Positions 1,955-6,578 of a stretch of DNA of 7,167 nt are shown in pieces. The DNA comes from Candidatus Woesearchaeota archaeon (lineage in GTDB: Archaea > Nanoarchaeota > Nanoarchaeia > Woesearchaeales > CALCXY01). The translations under genes were made by a program, and so were the position numbers. Position 1 is the first letter of the stretch. Every line of letters begins with the position of its first letter. The notes below the pieces were generated by a model. The model worked only from the letters and a program-made list of their open reading frames with translations, was not told the DNA's origin and did no database searches. The stretch is taken from NCBI GenBank assembly GCA_030751555.1, contig JASMFX010000069.1, positions 1-7,167 of the forward strand, in the 5' to 3' direction.

Positions 1955-2509
1955 TTATCTTAACAATACATCCTTTCTCTCAAAACTAATCTCATTCTTT
2001 TTCAAAACATCCTCAAATTCTAAAGAATTCTTGATAGGTATCTGTACTACTCCTGGAGCAAGATGCTTTCCTTCTAATTTTTCAATCATGCCCTTATTAT
2101 TTCTTCCAGCCAAGATATAGTTAAACTTAACCTTGTCAGTATGCGTTTTGTTCTTCAGAGTGTAGATAAATAAACTATGTCCTGTAAAATCAATTTTTTG
2201 GGCAAATGGTTTTCCATCAAAAAGGCTTATTCCCTCTAAGAAAATACCAGACCGAGCAAAAAACTCTGGCTTGAAAAGATCCTGCCAAAGTATTCCCTCC
2301 ATGTGTAATTTTTCCACAGATTTTAATTTTTTTTTCAGCGATTGAAGTTTATTCAATCTTTCTTTTAATGAACCATGTGTAAATATAACAACCACATCAA
2401 TATCCTCCGGTATATCTTTAGCCTTGACAGCAGAGCCATAAAGAACAATATCAAAGATAGTTGTATCCTTCTTCTCATCATTCAGCCATTTTTTTAATTG
2501 TATGAGCAT
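1955..2509 (-). CDS. Minimal nucleotidyltransferase (MNT-type), putative antitoxin partner of the HEPN gene
   Basis: This 184-aa protein carries the nucleotidyltransferase signature near its N-terminus: G25-S26, nine residues, then D36-I37-D38, in the run YGSAVKAKDIPEDIDVV. E71 in LHMEG is a candidate third metal-ligating carboxylate. Residues 1-100 make the catalytic fold. Residues 111-184 form an extra domain beginning HSLFIYTLKNKTH, with VKFNYILAGRNNKG and PGVVQIPI. From memory such tails occur in archaeal proteins, but I cannot name the domain. The start at 2509 lies 32 nt inside the upstream HEPN gene and is supported by a GAGGTG ribosome binding site 10 nt before it. No other Met lies before the GS motif. 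Established knowledge: MNT proteins paired with HEPN proteins can neutralise them by transferring AMP. The HEPN-then-MNT order and tight coupling fit a toxin-antitoxin operon, but activity here is inferred. Confidence 0.85.
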   Translation of the reverse strand: MLIQLKKWLNDEKKDTTIFDIVLYGSAVKAKDIPEDIDVVVIFTHGSLKERLNKLQSLKKKLKSVEKLHMEGILWQDLFKPEFFARSGIFLEGISLFDGKPFAQKIDFTGHSLFIYTLKNKTHTDKVKFNYILAGRNNKGMIEKLEGKHLAPGVVQIPIKNSLEFEDVLKKNEISFERKDVLLR

Positions 2510-2813
2510 CTTCTTTCAGCACCTCAGCTGCTTCTTTATCCATTTTCTTAGTATAGCTATCCTGATAGAAAGGAAAATCCTTGTCAAGCATATCATAAAG
2601 CTCAGGATATTTTTCTTGCAGTATTCTAAATCTATTCGTATGAGAACTTGGAACAGTACCTTCTTTCTTTAATAAAAACAAATCAGCACCAGCACTTATA
2701 GCTTTGAAGAAGAGGGTAACAGCAGAATTGAATTTATCTCTTTTAAGCGCCTCCTCAGCTAATCCCAAATACTCCTTCAGATTATCTGACAATATTTTCT
2801 CTTTTTCTTCCAT
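2478..2813 (-). CDS. Small HEPN-type helical protein, first gene of the HEPN-MNT operon
   Basis: This 111-aa, largely helical protein has the layout of the HEPN family. An N-terminal helix pair includes YLGLAEEALKRDKFNSAVTL and is followed by FFKAISAGADLFLLKK (about 11-50). Next are PSSHTNRFRIL (55-65) and a last helix, KEAAEVLKEDAHTIKKMAE (93-111). HEPN proteins in MNT operons are usually RNase toxins with an RX4-6H motif. That motif is not visible here: H58 precedes R61 in the wrong order, and H104 has no arginine 5-7 residues before it. It may therefore be a non-nuclease, substrate-binding HEPN or a divergent toxin. The ATG at 2811-2813 has no Shine-Dalgarno, and a TATA box centred about 30 bp upstream implies a nearly leaderless mRNA. 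The 3' end overlaps the MNT gene by 32 nt. Family assignment rests on helix pattern and context, so it is less certain than that of the MNT protein. Confidence 0.7.
   Translation of the reverse strand: MEEKEKILSDNLKEYLGLAEEALKRDKFNSAVTLFFKAISAGADLFLLKKEGTVPSSHTNRFRILQEKYPELYDMLDKDFPFYQDSYTKKMDKEAAEVLKEDAHTIKKMAE
2520..2525 (-). promoter_or_regulatory. Shine-Dalgarno site GAGGTG for the MNT gene, inside the HEPN gene
   Basis: The minus strand reads GAGGTG, a strong complement to the archaeal 16S rRNA 3' end, 10 nt before the ATG at 2509. It decides the MNT start and indicates that the second gene of the operon is translated from its own site within the HEPN reading frame, which would couple the two levels. 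Confidence 0.75.
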
Positions 2814-3044: not shown

Positions 3045-3266
3045 ATGAAATGCATTCTGTGCAATGGGAAAACTGTTTTGAAACAAGTGGATTATGCTGA
3101 ATTTGGGATAAATCTTGGAAGATTTCCTGCAAAAGTGTGTTCAAAATGTGGTGAAATCTACTTTGATGAAGATACAGCAGCAAAAATTCAGAAGAAATCT
3201 AAGGTAGCTGATCTTTTTGGAATAGCAAAAATAGCCTTCATGTGGAGCTTTAGTTCAAGATTATGA
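3045..3266 (+). CDS. YgiT/MqsA-type zinc-finger protein, apparently C-terminally truncated
   Basis: This 73-aa protein has two CxxC knuckles, C3-I-L-C6 and C32-S-K-C35, in the arrangement of the YgiT-type zinc finger. They are followed by the family hallmark GEIYFDEDTAAKIQKKSK (36-53). The VDYAEFGINLGRFPAKVC segment (15-32) is also typical. From memory, archaeal relatives usually continue after a KxKxxxLFGxxK segment into an AbrB/SpoVT-type or helix-turn-helix DNA-binding domain. Here the continuation after LFGIAKIA is FMWSFSSRL and stop, and none of the three plus-strand frames downstream shows a remnant of that domain. It may be a decayed antitoxin or regulator, or a functional stand-alone zinc finger. 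It lies between the HEPN-MNT operon (divergent) and the acidic-protein gene, with its own TATA box. The zinc-finger family is confident; function and intactness are not. Confidence 0.75.
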   Translation: MKCILCNGKTVLKQVDYAEFGINLGRFPAKVCSKCGEIYFDEDTAAKIQKKSKVADLFGIAKIAFMWSFSSRL

Positions 3267-4547: not shown

Positions 4548-6578
4548 ATGGCAAAAGAAAAAAAGAACAGCAAACCCAAGAAATCTATTCCTATTCCACC
4601 TGGATTAATAGAAAAACTACCTAAGGATGTTCAACAGAAGGTTAAGGCAATTAAGCCTAAAATCGATAAATATCAAAAAGAACTTCTTAAAAAATTTGAT
4701 AATTATGTGATTGGTATTTCGATAGCGCCACCACCACCTCAGCAGCCTCAAATGCCGCCTGGTGGAGGGCCAATGCCTCCTGGAGCTATACCTCCTGGTG
4801 CAATGCCACCTGGTGCTGTACCGCCTGGAGCGATGCCTCCTGGAATGCCTCAGATGCCACCTGCTAAAGGTGCTAAAAAAGGGGCTAAACAAGCTCAGAT
4901 GCCTACCATGCCTGGTATGCAGCAGCAACAAAAACTAACTCCTGAACAGGAAAAAGAGGTTAAGGGGAGGGTAAGCTTGTTGATACTTGTTGATGATTCT
5001 GACAGCCAAAAAATGTCAAAAGAGGAGTTGCGCAATAAACTCCTGGCTATTATGGATAATATGGCTGTTGAGATTGAGAAGAGGATATATCCAGAGGTTA
5101 TTTTATTAAGCGAGCTTTGGCAGAGTTGTTATGATGCAAAATATGATCTAGTTAGGCTATTTTCCTTGGCTGCTCCGATCTACGATACTGGAATGCTGCA
5201 GGCTGTTAGGATAGCTGAACTTCACAAAACAATGGTTTTGAAGAAGTTTGAAAAATATATTGTGAGTTATGTATTGGCAGGCAGTTTGATCCAGGGAAAG
5301 GCAACTGCCACATCTGATATTGATGTCTGGGTTGTTATTGATGATACTGATGTAAAAAAGATGACTCGTGCTGAGTTGAAAGACAAGCTACGAGCAATCA
5401 TTATTGGGATGGGCATTGAGGCTGGTGAGTTAACTAGTGTAAAAAACAAGCTCAACATCCAAGTCTACATCCTGACTGACTTTTGGGATAGCCTAAAAGA
5501 GGCAAATCCGATAATTTTTACTCTATTGAGGGATGGTGTTCCTTTCTATGACCGGGGAATATTTATGCCTTGGAAGCAGTTGCTTAAGATGGGAAAGATT
5601 AAGCCTAGTCCTGAAGCAATAGATATGTTTATGCACTCTGGAGAGCAGATGATCACTCGTGTTAAAACAGAGTTGAAGAATATTGCAATGGAGGATACTT
5701 TTTGGGCAATACTTACACCTTCACAGGCAGCACTGATGTTGTATGGTGTAGCACCTCCTACTCCTAAGGAAACTCCCCAACTTATGAGGGAACTGTTTGT
5801 CAAGAAGGAGAAGCTCTTAGAGGAAAAATATGTTAATATCCTAGAGAATAATATTGGAGTGAGAAAGGATCTGGAGCATGGCTCTAGAAAAGATATAACT
5901 GGCAAAGAAGTGGATAAGCTTTTAACAGATGCAGAGGAGTATCTGAAGAGGGTAAAGAAGTTGTTTACCCAGATTGAGGCAATTAAAGAGAAAGAAGATA
6001 TTGTCAAGGTATATGACAATGTGCTAACAGTTATTCGCGATGTATTACGTCTTGAAGGCAAGGATAATGTAAGCGATGTTGAGATTATCCAGGAATTTGA
6101 GAATGAGATGATTAGCAAAGGCAAGATTGCTGCTAAATTTTTGCGTATTTTGAATGACTTGATCAAAGGGAAGAAGGATTATGACCAAGGCAAGTTGACT
6201 AGGCCTGAAGTAGAGAAGATTAAGAAGGATAGTAGAACGCTAACTAAAGAACTTATTGAGTATATGCAGCGCAAACGGGGAAAAGAACTCGAGAAGGCTC
6301 GTATACGAGTTAAGCATGGCAATAGATTTGGAGAGATTCTTTTGTTTGGAAATACTGCTTTTATTATCCATGATATTGATCATGAGGAAAAGGAGATTTC
6401 TAAATCAAAAATAAAAGAGGATGGTAGCTTAGGAACGCCCCAGAAAAGTTCACTTGAAGACATGGAGAAGTTTTTGGCTGATGCTAAGATACCTGAGAAG
6501 GTTTTTATTAAAGAACCTCTCTTTGAAGATCTGAAAAGATTTTTCGGCAAGGATGTTCAAGTGCTGATAAACTATTAA
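4548..6578 (+). CDS. Single-chain nucleotidyltransferase-HEPN protein with both modules duplicated
   Basis: This 676-aa protein appears to hold four modules and a tail. NT1 (about 45-216) and NT2 (about 231-338) align with each other: KKFDNYVIGISIA with KKFEKYIVSYVLA, LVDDSDSQKMSKEELRNKL with VIDDTDVKKMTRAELKDKL, and APIYDTGML with VPFYDRGIF. NT2 keeps G245-S246 and D257-I258-D259. NT1 has lost these; the loop is replaced by about 80 residues including a Pro/Gly/Met/Gln-rich tract (61-130). HEPN1 (about 355-480) contains R439-KDLE-H444, the RX4H RNase motif, but lacks the HxY tyrosine that is AMP-modified in characterised HepT toxins. HEPN2 (about 484-575) has K542-KDYD-Q547 at the same place. 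Residues 582-676 form an alpha/beta tail. The N-terminus is Lys-rich. Domain identity is confident from motifs. The role, perhaps a self-contained toxin-antitoxin, RNA-processing or nucleotide-transfer machine in the cytoplasm, is inference. Confidence 0.85.
   Translation: MAKEKKNSKPKKSIPIPPGLIEKLPKDVQQKVKAIKPKIDKYQKELLKKFDNYVIGISIAPPPPQQPQMPPGGGPMPPGAIPPGAMPPGAVPPGAMPPGMPQMPPAKGAKKGAKQAQMPTMPGMQQQQKLTPEQEKEVKGRVSLLILVDDSDSQKMSKEELRNKLLAIMDNMAVEIEKRIYPEVILLSELWQSCYDAKYDLVRLFSLAAPIYDTGMLQAVRIAELHKTMVLKKFEKYIVSYVLAGSLIQGKATATSDIDVWVVIDDTDVKKMTRAELKDKLRAIIIGMGIEAGELTSVKNKLNIQVYILTDFWDSLKEANPIIFTLLRDGVPFYDRGIFMPWKQLLKMGKIKPSPEAIDMFMHSGEQMITRVKTELKNIAMEDTFWAILTPSQAALMLYGVAPPTPKETPQLMRELFVKKEKLLEEKYVNILENNIGVRKDLEHGSRKDITGKEVDKLLTDAEEYLKRVKKLFTQIEAIKEKEDIVKVYDNVLTVIRDVLRLEGKDNVSDVEIIQEFENEMISKGKIAAKFLRILNDLIKGKKDYDQGKLTRPEVEKIKKDSRTLTKELIEYMQRKRGKELEKARIRVKHGNRFGEILLFGNTAFIIHDIDHEEKEISKSKIKEDGSLGTPQKSSLEDMEKFLADAKIPEKVFIKEPLFEDLKRFFGKDVQVLINY
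4773..4847 (+). repeat. Five tandem PPGA-type pentapeptide repeats within the NT1 loop
   Basis: Residues 76-100 are five units of the form (M/I/V)PPG(A/M) encoded in a 15-bp period. The DNA copies differ at synonymous third positions (Pro as CCT, CCA or CCG; Gly as GGA or GGT; Ala as GCT, GCA or GCG). This suggests the peptide is maintained by selection rather than by recent slippage. The tract is part of a longer Pro/Gly/Met/Gln-rich stretch that is probably extended and flexible. Confidence 0.85.

Follow-up and report, generated by a model that had tools for sequence, protein, structure and literature searches.

A near-universal protein of Woesearchaeota and related archaea with two nucleotidyltransferase and two HEPN modules, one of each degenerate

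The 7,167-nucleotide contig JASMFX010000069.1 of a Candidatus Woesearchaeota archaeon (assembly GCA_030751555.1), hereafter referred to as the window, contains an open reading frame (ORF) for a protein built of two nucleotidyltransferase (NT) and two HEPN modules. In this protein, termed L (long form), the modules follow in the order NT1, NT2, HEPN1 and HEPN2, and an active-looking NT2–HEPN1 core is flanked by a degenerate NT1 on one side and a degenerate HEPN2 on the other, with a beta domain at the C-terminus (Table 1). Two shorter relatives, both with a single NT–HEPN unit, are distinguished from it below: S (about 270 amino acids) and M (335–404 amino acids). L resembles a housekeeping protein more than a toxin system, and it represents a strikingly conserved, near-universal protein without an assigned job in a large archaeal radiation.

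Table 1. Modules and motifs of the L protein in the window (positions on contig JASMFX010000069.1)
Feature	Position	Strand	Basis
ORF, long (L) NT–HEPN protein, 676 amino acids	4548..6578	+	
NT1 (degenerate), part one, residues 26–63; GS positions are Pro-Pro	4623..4736	+	AlphaFold2 model; P61 106/113, P62 104/113; hhalign to NT2
Pro/Met/Gly-rich disordered insert inside NT1, residues 66–129, 15-base repeats	4743..4934	+	predicted local distance difference test (pLDDT) <50; alignment; tandem repeats
NT1 (degenerate), part two, residues 130–215	4935..5192	+	model; hhalign; residue counts
NT2, residues 216–340, most conserved module	5193..5567	+	
GSX10DXD motif of NT2 (G245, S246, D257, D259)	5280..5324	+	four residues in 113/113 distinct rows
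Asn303, where canonical MNTs have their third metal-binding acid	5454..5456	+	residue counts; alignment to 11 MNTs via M
HEPN1, residues 355–480	5610..5987	+	
RKDLEH, RX4H-like motif of HEPN1	5862..5879	+	R 91, K 111, E 113, H 112 of 113; no Tyr at H+2
HEPN2 (degenerate), residues 481–583	5988..6296	+	hhalign to HEPN1; model
C-terminal beta-rich domain, residues 584–676	6297..6575	+	AlphaFold2 models; undetected in some homologues

The four modules were proposed in a preliminary description made from the letters of the window alone; both profile comparisons and an AlphaFold2 model uphold them, with the borders revised to those of Table 1 and with the addition of the C-terminal domain, which was absent from that description. 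Module profiles built from 115 L rows were compared by hhalign, with 40 column-shuffled controls for each matching pair. NT1 matched NT2 with a probability of 99.5 (score, 125; maximum of the shuffled controls, 16.9), and HEPN1 matched HEPN2 with a probability of 96.4 (score, 54.9; maximum of the controls, 19.3). The controls rule out chance similarity as the source of these internal repeats, which the preliminary description had noted as alignable domains, while the remaining eight module pairs did not exceed a probability of 2.7%. Among the BLASTP matches listed, NT2 of the window protein also matched NT1 of the L proteins at loci L084 (E-value, 2e-8) and L096 (E-value, 8e-8).

The full-chain AlphaFold2 model (built from 30 sequences; mean pLDDT, 78; predicted template modelling score (pTM), 0.47) has an identical order of helices and strands in NT1 and NT2, and comparable helix patterns in HEPN1 and HEPN2. 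Based on the profile match of 99.5% to NT2 and on the order of secondary structure elements, NT1 is predicted to have the alpha/beta fold of Pol beta-type NTs, and HEPN1 and HEPN2 each correspond to a four-helix HEPN bundle. For HEPN2 folded alone, the best structural alignments were to HEPN structures, as the preliminary description had anticipated; the weak point of this assignment is that Foldseek returned no match for HEPN2 at an E-value of 0.001 or below (2hsb: E-value, 0.11; probability, 1.00). At the level of single sequences the folds are barely detectable: in Pfam, the window protein gives a sub-threshold NT domain around residues 235–291 and a faint HEPN trace, and a sequence comparison with the PDB gave only five matches for it, with E-values of 0.13 or worse. 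The S profile has weak matches to NT domains in the PDB (best E-value, 1.4e-4). The insert within NT1 is long in the window protein, whereas most of 30 aligned homologues have a short one or none. Foldseek matches of the C-terminal domain were weak, many of them coronavirus proteases with E-values above 0.1, and were treated as noise.

Unless stated otherwise, motif and residue counts refer to the 113 distinct rows among the 115 L rows. In addition to being invariant in L, the GS and DxD residues of NT2 are kept in all of the aligned S (25) and M (11) proteins. The spacing between GS and DxD is 10 residues in 105 of the 115 rows, nine in six and eight in four. With a median identity to the window protein of 0.87 (minimum, 0.47), compared with 0.53–0.66 for the other modules, NT2 is the most conserved module, which argues for a retained nucleotide site. 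In NT1, prolines stand at the GS positions, the counterparts of the DxD aspartates are mostly Lys (residue 141) and mostly Asn, His or Ser (residue 143), and a GS..DxD pattern was found in one of the 115 rows. Since NT1 is without the motif across homologues, its decay is a fixed trait of the family and not a peculiarity of the window copy.

It had been stated that GS...DID is kept in NT2 alone and RX4H in HEPN1 alone, and this is true of the window protein. Across the family, RX4H is found in HEPN1 of 90/113 L, and RX4HXY in none of the 113. The Arg is replaced by Tyr, Phe, Trp or Cys in 22/113 L, and it is absent from all 11 M and all 25 S, while the Lys that follows this position is kept in 111/113 L, 11/11 M and 23/25 S, and the His in 112/113 L, 11/11 M and 17/25 S. 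Within HEPN1 of L, K-x-x-E-H is the most conserved stretch, and the motif common to L, M and S is K-x-x-x-H, not the RNase motif.

The metal site of NT2 differs from the MntA type as well. According to the available part of PMC7641770, D71 of MntA binds Mg along with D39 and D41. Judging from strand order, the column of this third acid corresponds to the start of the third NT strand, an assignment that appears moderately secure. The alignments of S and NT2 to MNTs end before this column, and its placement rests on strand order together with an hhalign comparison (probability, 82.5) of the M profile with 11 MNT-type proteins encoded near MntA family hits, in which the position falls on a column of nine Asp, one Glu and one Gln. 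In L, the 113 rows have Asn (91), His (13), Ser (four), Glu (four) or Ile (one) at this position, and all 25 S and all 11 M have His at the equivalent one. On this moderately secure assignment, the third Mg-binding Asp of the MntA type is replaced by a residue other than an acid in NT2 of 109/113 L and by Glu in the other four.

The distribution of the family was explored in two overlapping samples, 194 genomes for any family match and 371 genomes for the S model, of the phylum taken here as Woesearchaeota, Nanoarchaeota and their kin. A family match was found in 193 of the 194 genomes. About 172 of the 194 carry L, whole or in pieces, the genome classes L, M and S in this sample being assigned partly from best E-values. 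The S model matched in 370/371 genomes; for 15 of these 370 genomes, a best match weaker than 1e-60 possibly represents L or a divergent S. The MntA antitoxin family is patchier across the phylum than L and S: it exceeds its curated cut-off in eight of 60 genomes, with a weaker match, L and S included, in 59 of the 60. In a search with the window protein, 4308 of 7994 scored candidates passed an E-value of 0.001, which rules out an oddity of this one contig. The closest relative (P0002) shares 79% identity over 98%, and the closest among named records, from a Woesearchaeota metagenome-assembled genome (L001), shares 88% in the best segment. As to a viral origin, no relative turned up in one viral_contigs scan, a single scan that leaves absence unproven. 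Source annotations of family proteins read nucleotidyltransferase, UPF0332 or DNA polymerase subunit beta.

The preliminary description had suggested a survey of homologues for the same module order, and the order proved to be widespread. The fetched loci encode 173 distinct family proteins. All five domains are present in 121 of these, six of which have an insert splitting NT1; six are without a detected C-terminal domain and three without a detected HEPN2 (one at a contig end and two divergent); 41 (S and M) consist only of NT2–HEPN1; and the other two are a contig-end fragment and a different NT protein. The 351 proteins listed in three protein searches comprise 222 with all five domains, 103 with NT2–HEPN1 and 26 others; 24 of those 26 are divergent or partial rows, which often show no detected HEPN2 or no detected C-terminal domain. 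NT1 and HEPN2 mostly co-occur, as expected for one pseudo-unit around an active-looking unit. This supports the earlier proposal that an NT–HEPN fusion was duplicated in cis and that one copy of each module has degenerated. All five domains were also detected in a protein of Nanobdella aerobiophila, an archaeon grown in co-culture.

In a tree of 111 core segments (midpoint root), the 30 S, the 11 M and the 61 L, among which nine further, divergent L are nested, each fall on one side of a branch, with supports of 100/100, 100/99 and 99/92, respectively, and L adjoins M. All three forms are found together in one genome in two cases (G149 and G151). The hhalign probabilities leave the descent of NT1 and HEPN2 from S or M undecided (S to NT1, 96.7; M to NT1, 99.1; S to HEPN2, 92.6; M to HEPN2, 62.2). 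One M row is labelled Aenigmarchaeota by its source, and another M protein (P0123) is from Parvarchaeum acidophilus, a species in which MNT-associated HEPN domains are mentioned in the accessible part of PMC3710099.

For the gene neighbourhood, loci of the group to which the window belongs (L001–L084) were counted separately from those of other lineages. Ribosomal protein genes were sought downstream, eL33 within 1200 bases on the same strand for distinct proteins with at least 1200 bases of flank, and uL16 within 2500 bases. Outside the window's group, eL33 lies directly downstream in 29 of 45 distinct L and seven of 10 distinct M, and uL16 is found downstream in 12 of 20 L. In 95 long loci (93 distinct proteins), a CBS-domain protein is encoded within eight genes in 41 cases; in 29 its gene immediately follows that of L in the same orientation. 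Near L in 31 of the 95 loci there is a tandem family with proteins of about 176 amino acids. Its members often occur in several copies in a row (e.g., at L029:4763-5365, L040:12137-12664 and L099:3991-4506); two tested members had no Pfam match over the cut-off, and one of them had none in NCBIfam either. In 17 of 25 loci, S is preceded on the same strand by a gene for a TIM-barrel protein (Pfam AP_endonuc_2); at L131–L149 this neighbour is roughly 600 amino acids long and xylose-isomerase-like, and is often followed by a protein of about 400 amino acids. S and M, both the TIM-barrel and the tandem neighbour, and two ORFs of the window had no NCBIfam match above cut-off. In one order, 23 of 55 genomes, by visual count, have L and S no more than 10 kb apart on the same contig.

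Our favoured reading, much of which we infer and to which we give roughly even chances of being right, is that L is a domesticated nucleotide-binding NT–HEPN regulator with a built-in pseudo-copy, which works with S in translation. The family would be vertically inherited and would have been domesticated from a NT–HEPN unit of the toxin–antitoxin type. NT2 is predicted to bind a nucleoside triphosphate with Mg through GSX10DXD and, with the third acid altered to Asn or His, may act either as a nucleotide sensor or as a slow nucleotidyltransferase. The degenerate NT1 and HEPN2 would form a tethered pseudo-subunit that completes an intramolecular pseudo-dimer. S is a candidate partner of L, and the two may work jointly in translation or ribosome function; a role in translation is suggested because L is encoded beside eL33 and uL16 in several lineages. 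A more far-reaching proposal, which we regard as rather unlikely, is that one NT–HEPN unit has been inserted within another, the outer dead unit (NT1 and HEPN2) serving as a tethered allosteric subunit of the inner NT2–HEPN1. The hetero-assembly of L and S would then sense or transfer nucleotides on the translation machinery by means of an NT site rebuilt with Asn or His at the third catalytic acid, and L would be a phylum-wide, nucleotide-dependent and possibly essential factor. If L does act on translation, it would clearly exemplify a toxin–antitoxin-type fold that has become a core cellular factor. The dissection yields testable parts, namely the predicted nucleotide-binding residues, the dead-looking modules and the likely partner paralogue.

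Several observations weigh against this reading. In the window's own group, eL33 was found downstream in none of the 70 loci with enough flank, the neighbours of L in the window include no translation genes, and uL16 was found within 2500 bases in none of six M. The closeness of L and S may reflect only slow rearrangement. Among the 194 genomes, whose completeness is unstated, 11 have M and S without L, 10 have only S and one has no match. Glu still stands at the third-acid position in 4/113 L, and HEPN2 is often undetected in divergent rows of the Nanopusillaceae type. The packing of the pseudo-unit is left unfixed by a model with the above pTM, and the mutual orientation of NT2 and HEPN1 is unsupported because, compared as a unit with kanamycin nucleotidyltransferases, they give a root-mean-square deviation (rmsd) of 18–20 Å (19.4 Å over 206 residues).

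The preliminary description had viewed the protein in a toxin–antitoxin frame, with the pseudo-copies as scaffold or built-in inhibitor. In a single-chain toxin–antitoxin or defence module of this kind, an RNase activity of HEPN1 would be restrained either by NT2-dependent modification or by the pseudo-copies. Such a module would agree with the GSX10DXD kept in NT2, with the RX4H of the window protein and of 90/113 L, and with weak PADLOC matches of the NT part (PDC-S09, 8e-6; PDC-M05A, 7e-4; best E-value of PDC-S09/PDC-M05 over the NT domain, 8.4e-6 for L and 8.3e-15 for S, from a library without cut-off). The literature, as far as the relevant parts of the papers were available, offers further points in its favour: a DPANN cluster of MNT fused to HEPN is called most probably a toxin–antitoxin module (PMC6393860), PDC-M05 is an archaea-enriched NT plus HEPN system with an unconfirmed antiviral role (PMC12988326), and class II HEPN/MNT pairs without RX4H exist (PMC7641770). 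It is nevertheless very improbable, and toxin–antitoxin action or built-in inhibition was rejected as the main explanation, given that RX4HXY is absent from all 113 L, that the Arg is lacking in 22/113 L and in every M and S, that L is found in about 172/194 genomes while the MntA antitoxin family passes its cut-off in 8/60, and that housekeeping genes are its neighbours in several lineages.

The succession of an NT and a HEPN-like helical domain in one chain is shared by L with kanamycin nucleotidyltransferase and AadA-type enzymes, and L might accordingly be a small-molecule or metabolite nucleotidyltransferase with HEPN1 as the substrate-binding domain. We consider this improbable: at an rmsd of 19.4 Å only single domains match, the third acid is replaced, and a second full unit would be left unexplained. 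A catalytically dead RNA-binding or ribosome-assembly scaffold, in which the NT and HEPN folds are purely structural, seems a doubtful but not negligible alternative. The absence of the NT1 motif from 114/115 rows, the loss of the third acid of NT2, the C-terminal beta domain and the linkage to eL33 and uL16 in several lineages would all suit a scaffold, but the invariance of GS and DxD in 113/113 L, 25 S and 11 M is hard to explain without binding of a nucleotide or metal.

Besides uncharacterised ORFs, the neighbours of L in the window are a small NT/HEPN-like pair, an ORF with a zinc finger and one for an MFS transporter. The pair (positions 1955–2813, minus strand) consists of overlapping small genes, a 111-amino-acid ORF followed by one for a 184-amino-acid NT protein. 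The former is HEPN-like by eye, with no Pfam match and no meaningful BLASTP similarity to the L protein, and the latter matches DUF6932 and Polbeta below cut-off; together they are a candidate ordinary NT/HEPN pair. Just upstream of this pair, three perfect 13-base palindromes (TTGTATWATACAA) are located at 2815–2827, 2855–2867 and 2895–2907, at a spacing of exactly 40 bases. Three matches were obtained in none of 200 shuffles, and the trio looks like an operator array. The 73-amino-acid product of the plus-strand ORF at 3045–3266 carries a zinc finger of the YgiT type (TIGR03831 exceeds its cut-off, and the MqsA family model stays below its own) and is possibly a remnant antitoxin.

Compared with known systems, the closest counterpart is the DPANN-specific cluster cls.004259 (NEQ050), described in the available part of PMC6393860 (2019) as an MNT fused to HEPN and found in 36 of 67 DPANN genomes and in two outside. 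Its authors stress its unusual conservation and typically housekeeping context, yet call it most probably a toxin–antitoxin module. This cluster very probably belongs to the same superfamily, as L, M or S, with N. equitans, the source of NEQ050, not identified among the genomes and rows examined here. Like L, it is a conserved MNT–HEPN fusion in a housekeeping context, which for L has been shown in one phylum only; as far as its published description was accessible, it does not include two NT and two HEPN modules, the L, M and S paralogues or the altered metal site. A literature search, covering few subscription papers, found no account of the four modules, their nested arrangement, the three paralogues or the altered metal site. 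The earlier statement that no described system has this layout is too strong in view of the DPANN cluster.

HepT/MntA shares with L the NT and HEPN folds and GSX10DXD. In class I HepT, the Tyr of RX4HXY is the target of AMPylation (PMC7641770, in the part available). In contrast to HepT/MntA as described there, L has two of each domain in one chain, no RX4HXY and a replaced third Mg ligand, and is near-universal in the phylum. It does not look like a separate two-gene, mobile, patchy module: it is a single chain, family matches are found in 193/194 genomes, and L, M and S are separate in the tree. Two NT units in one chain are also known from the glutamine synthetase adenylyltransferase GlnE, in which the order is NT-helical-NT-helical; the GlnE halves 1v4a and 3k7d are among the structure matches. 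L resembles GlnE in the number of NT units per chain, and it differs from it in the nested order NT-NT-HEPN-HEPN. Kanamycin nucleotidyltransferase and AadA-type enzymes, the helical domain of which is related to HEPN (PMC3710099), are single units in another context, with a domain orientation that is unmatched in L (rmsd of about 19 Å). According to the accessible part of the same paper, HEPN domains fused to MNT are typically without the predicted RNase residues, and such units have been domesticated into regulatory enzymes, an account that fits the reading of L as a domesticated regulator.

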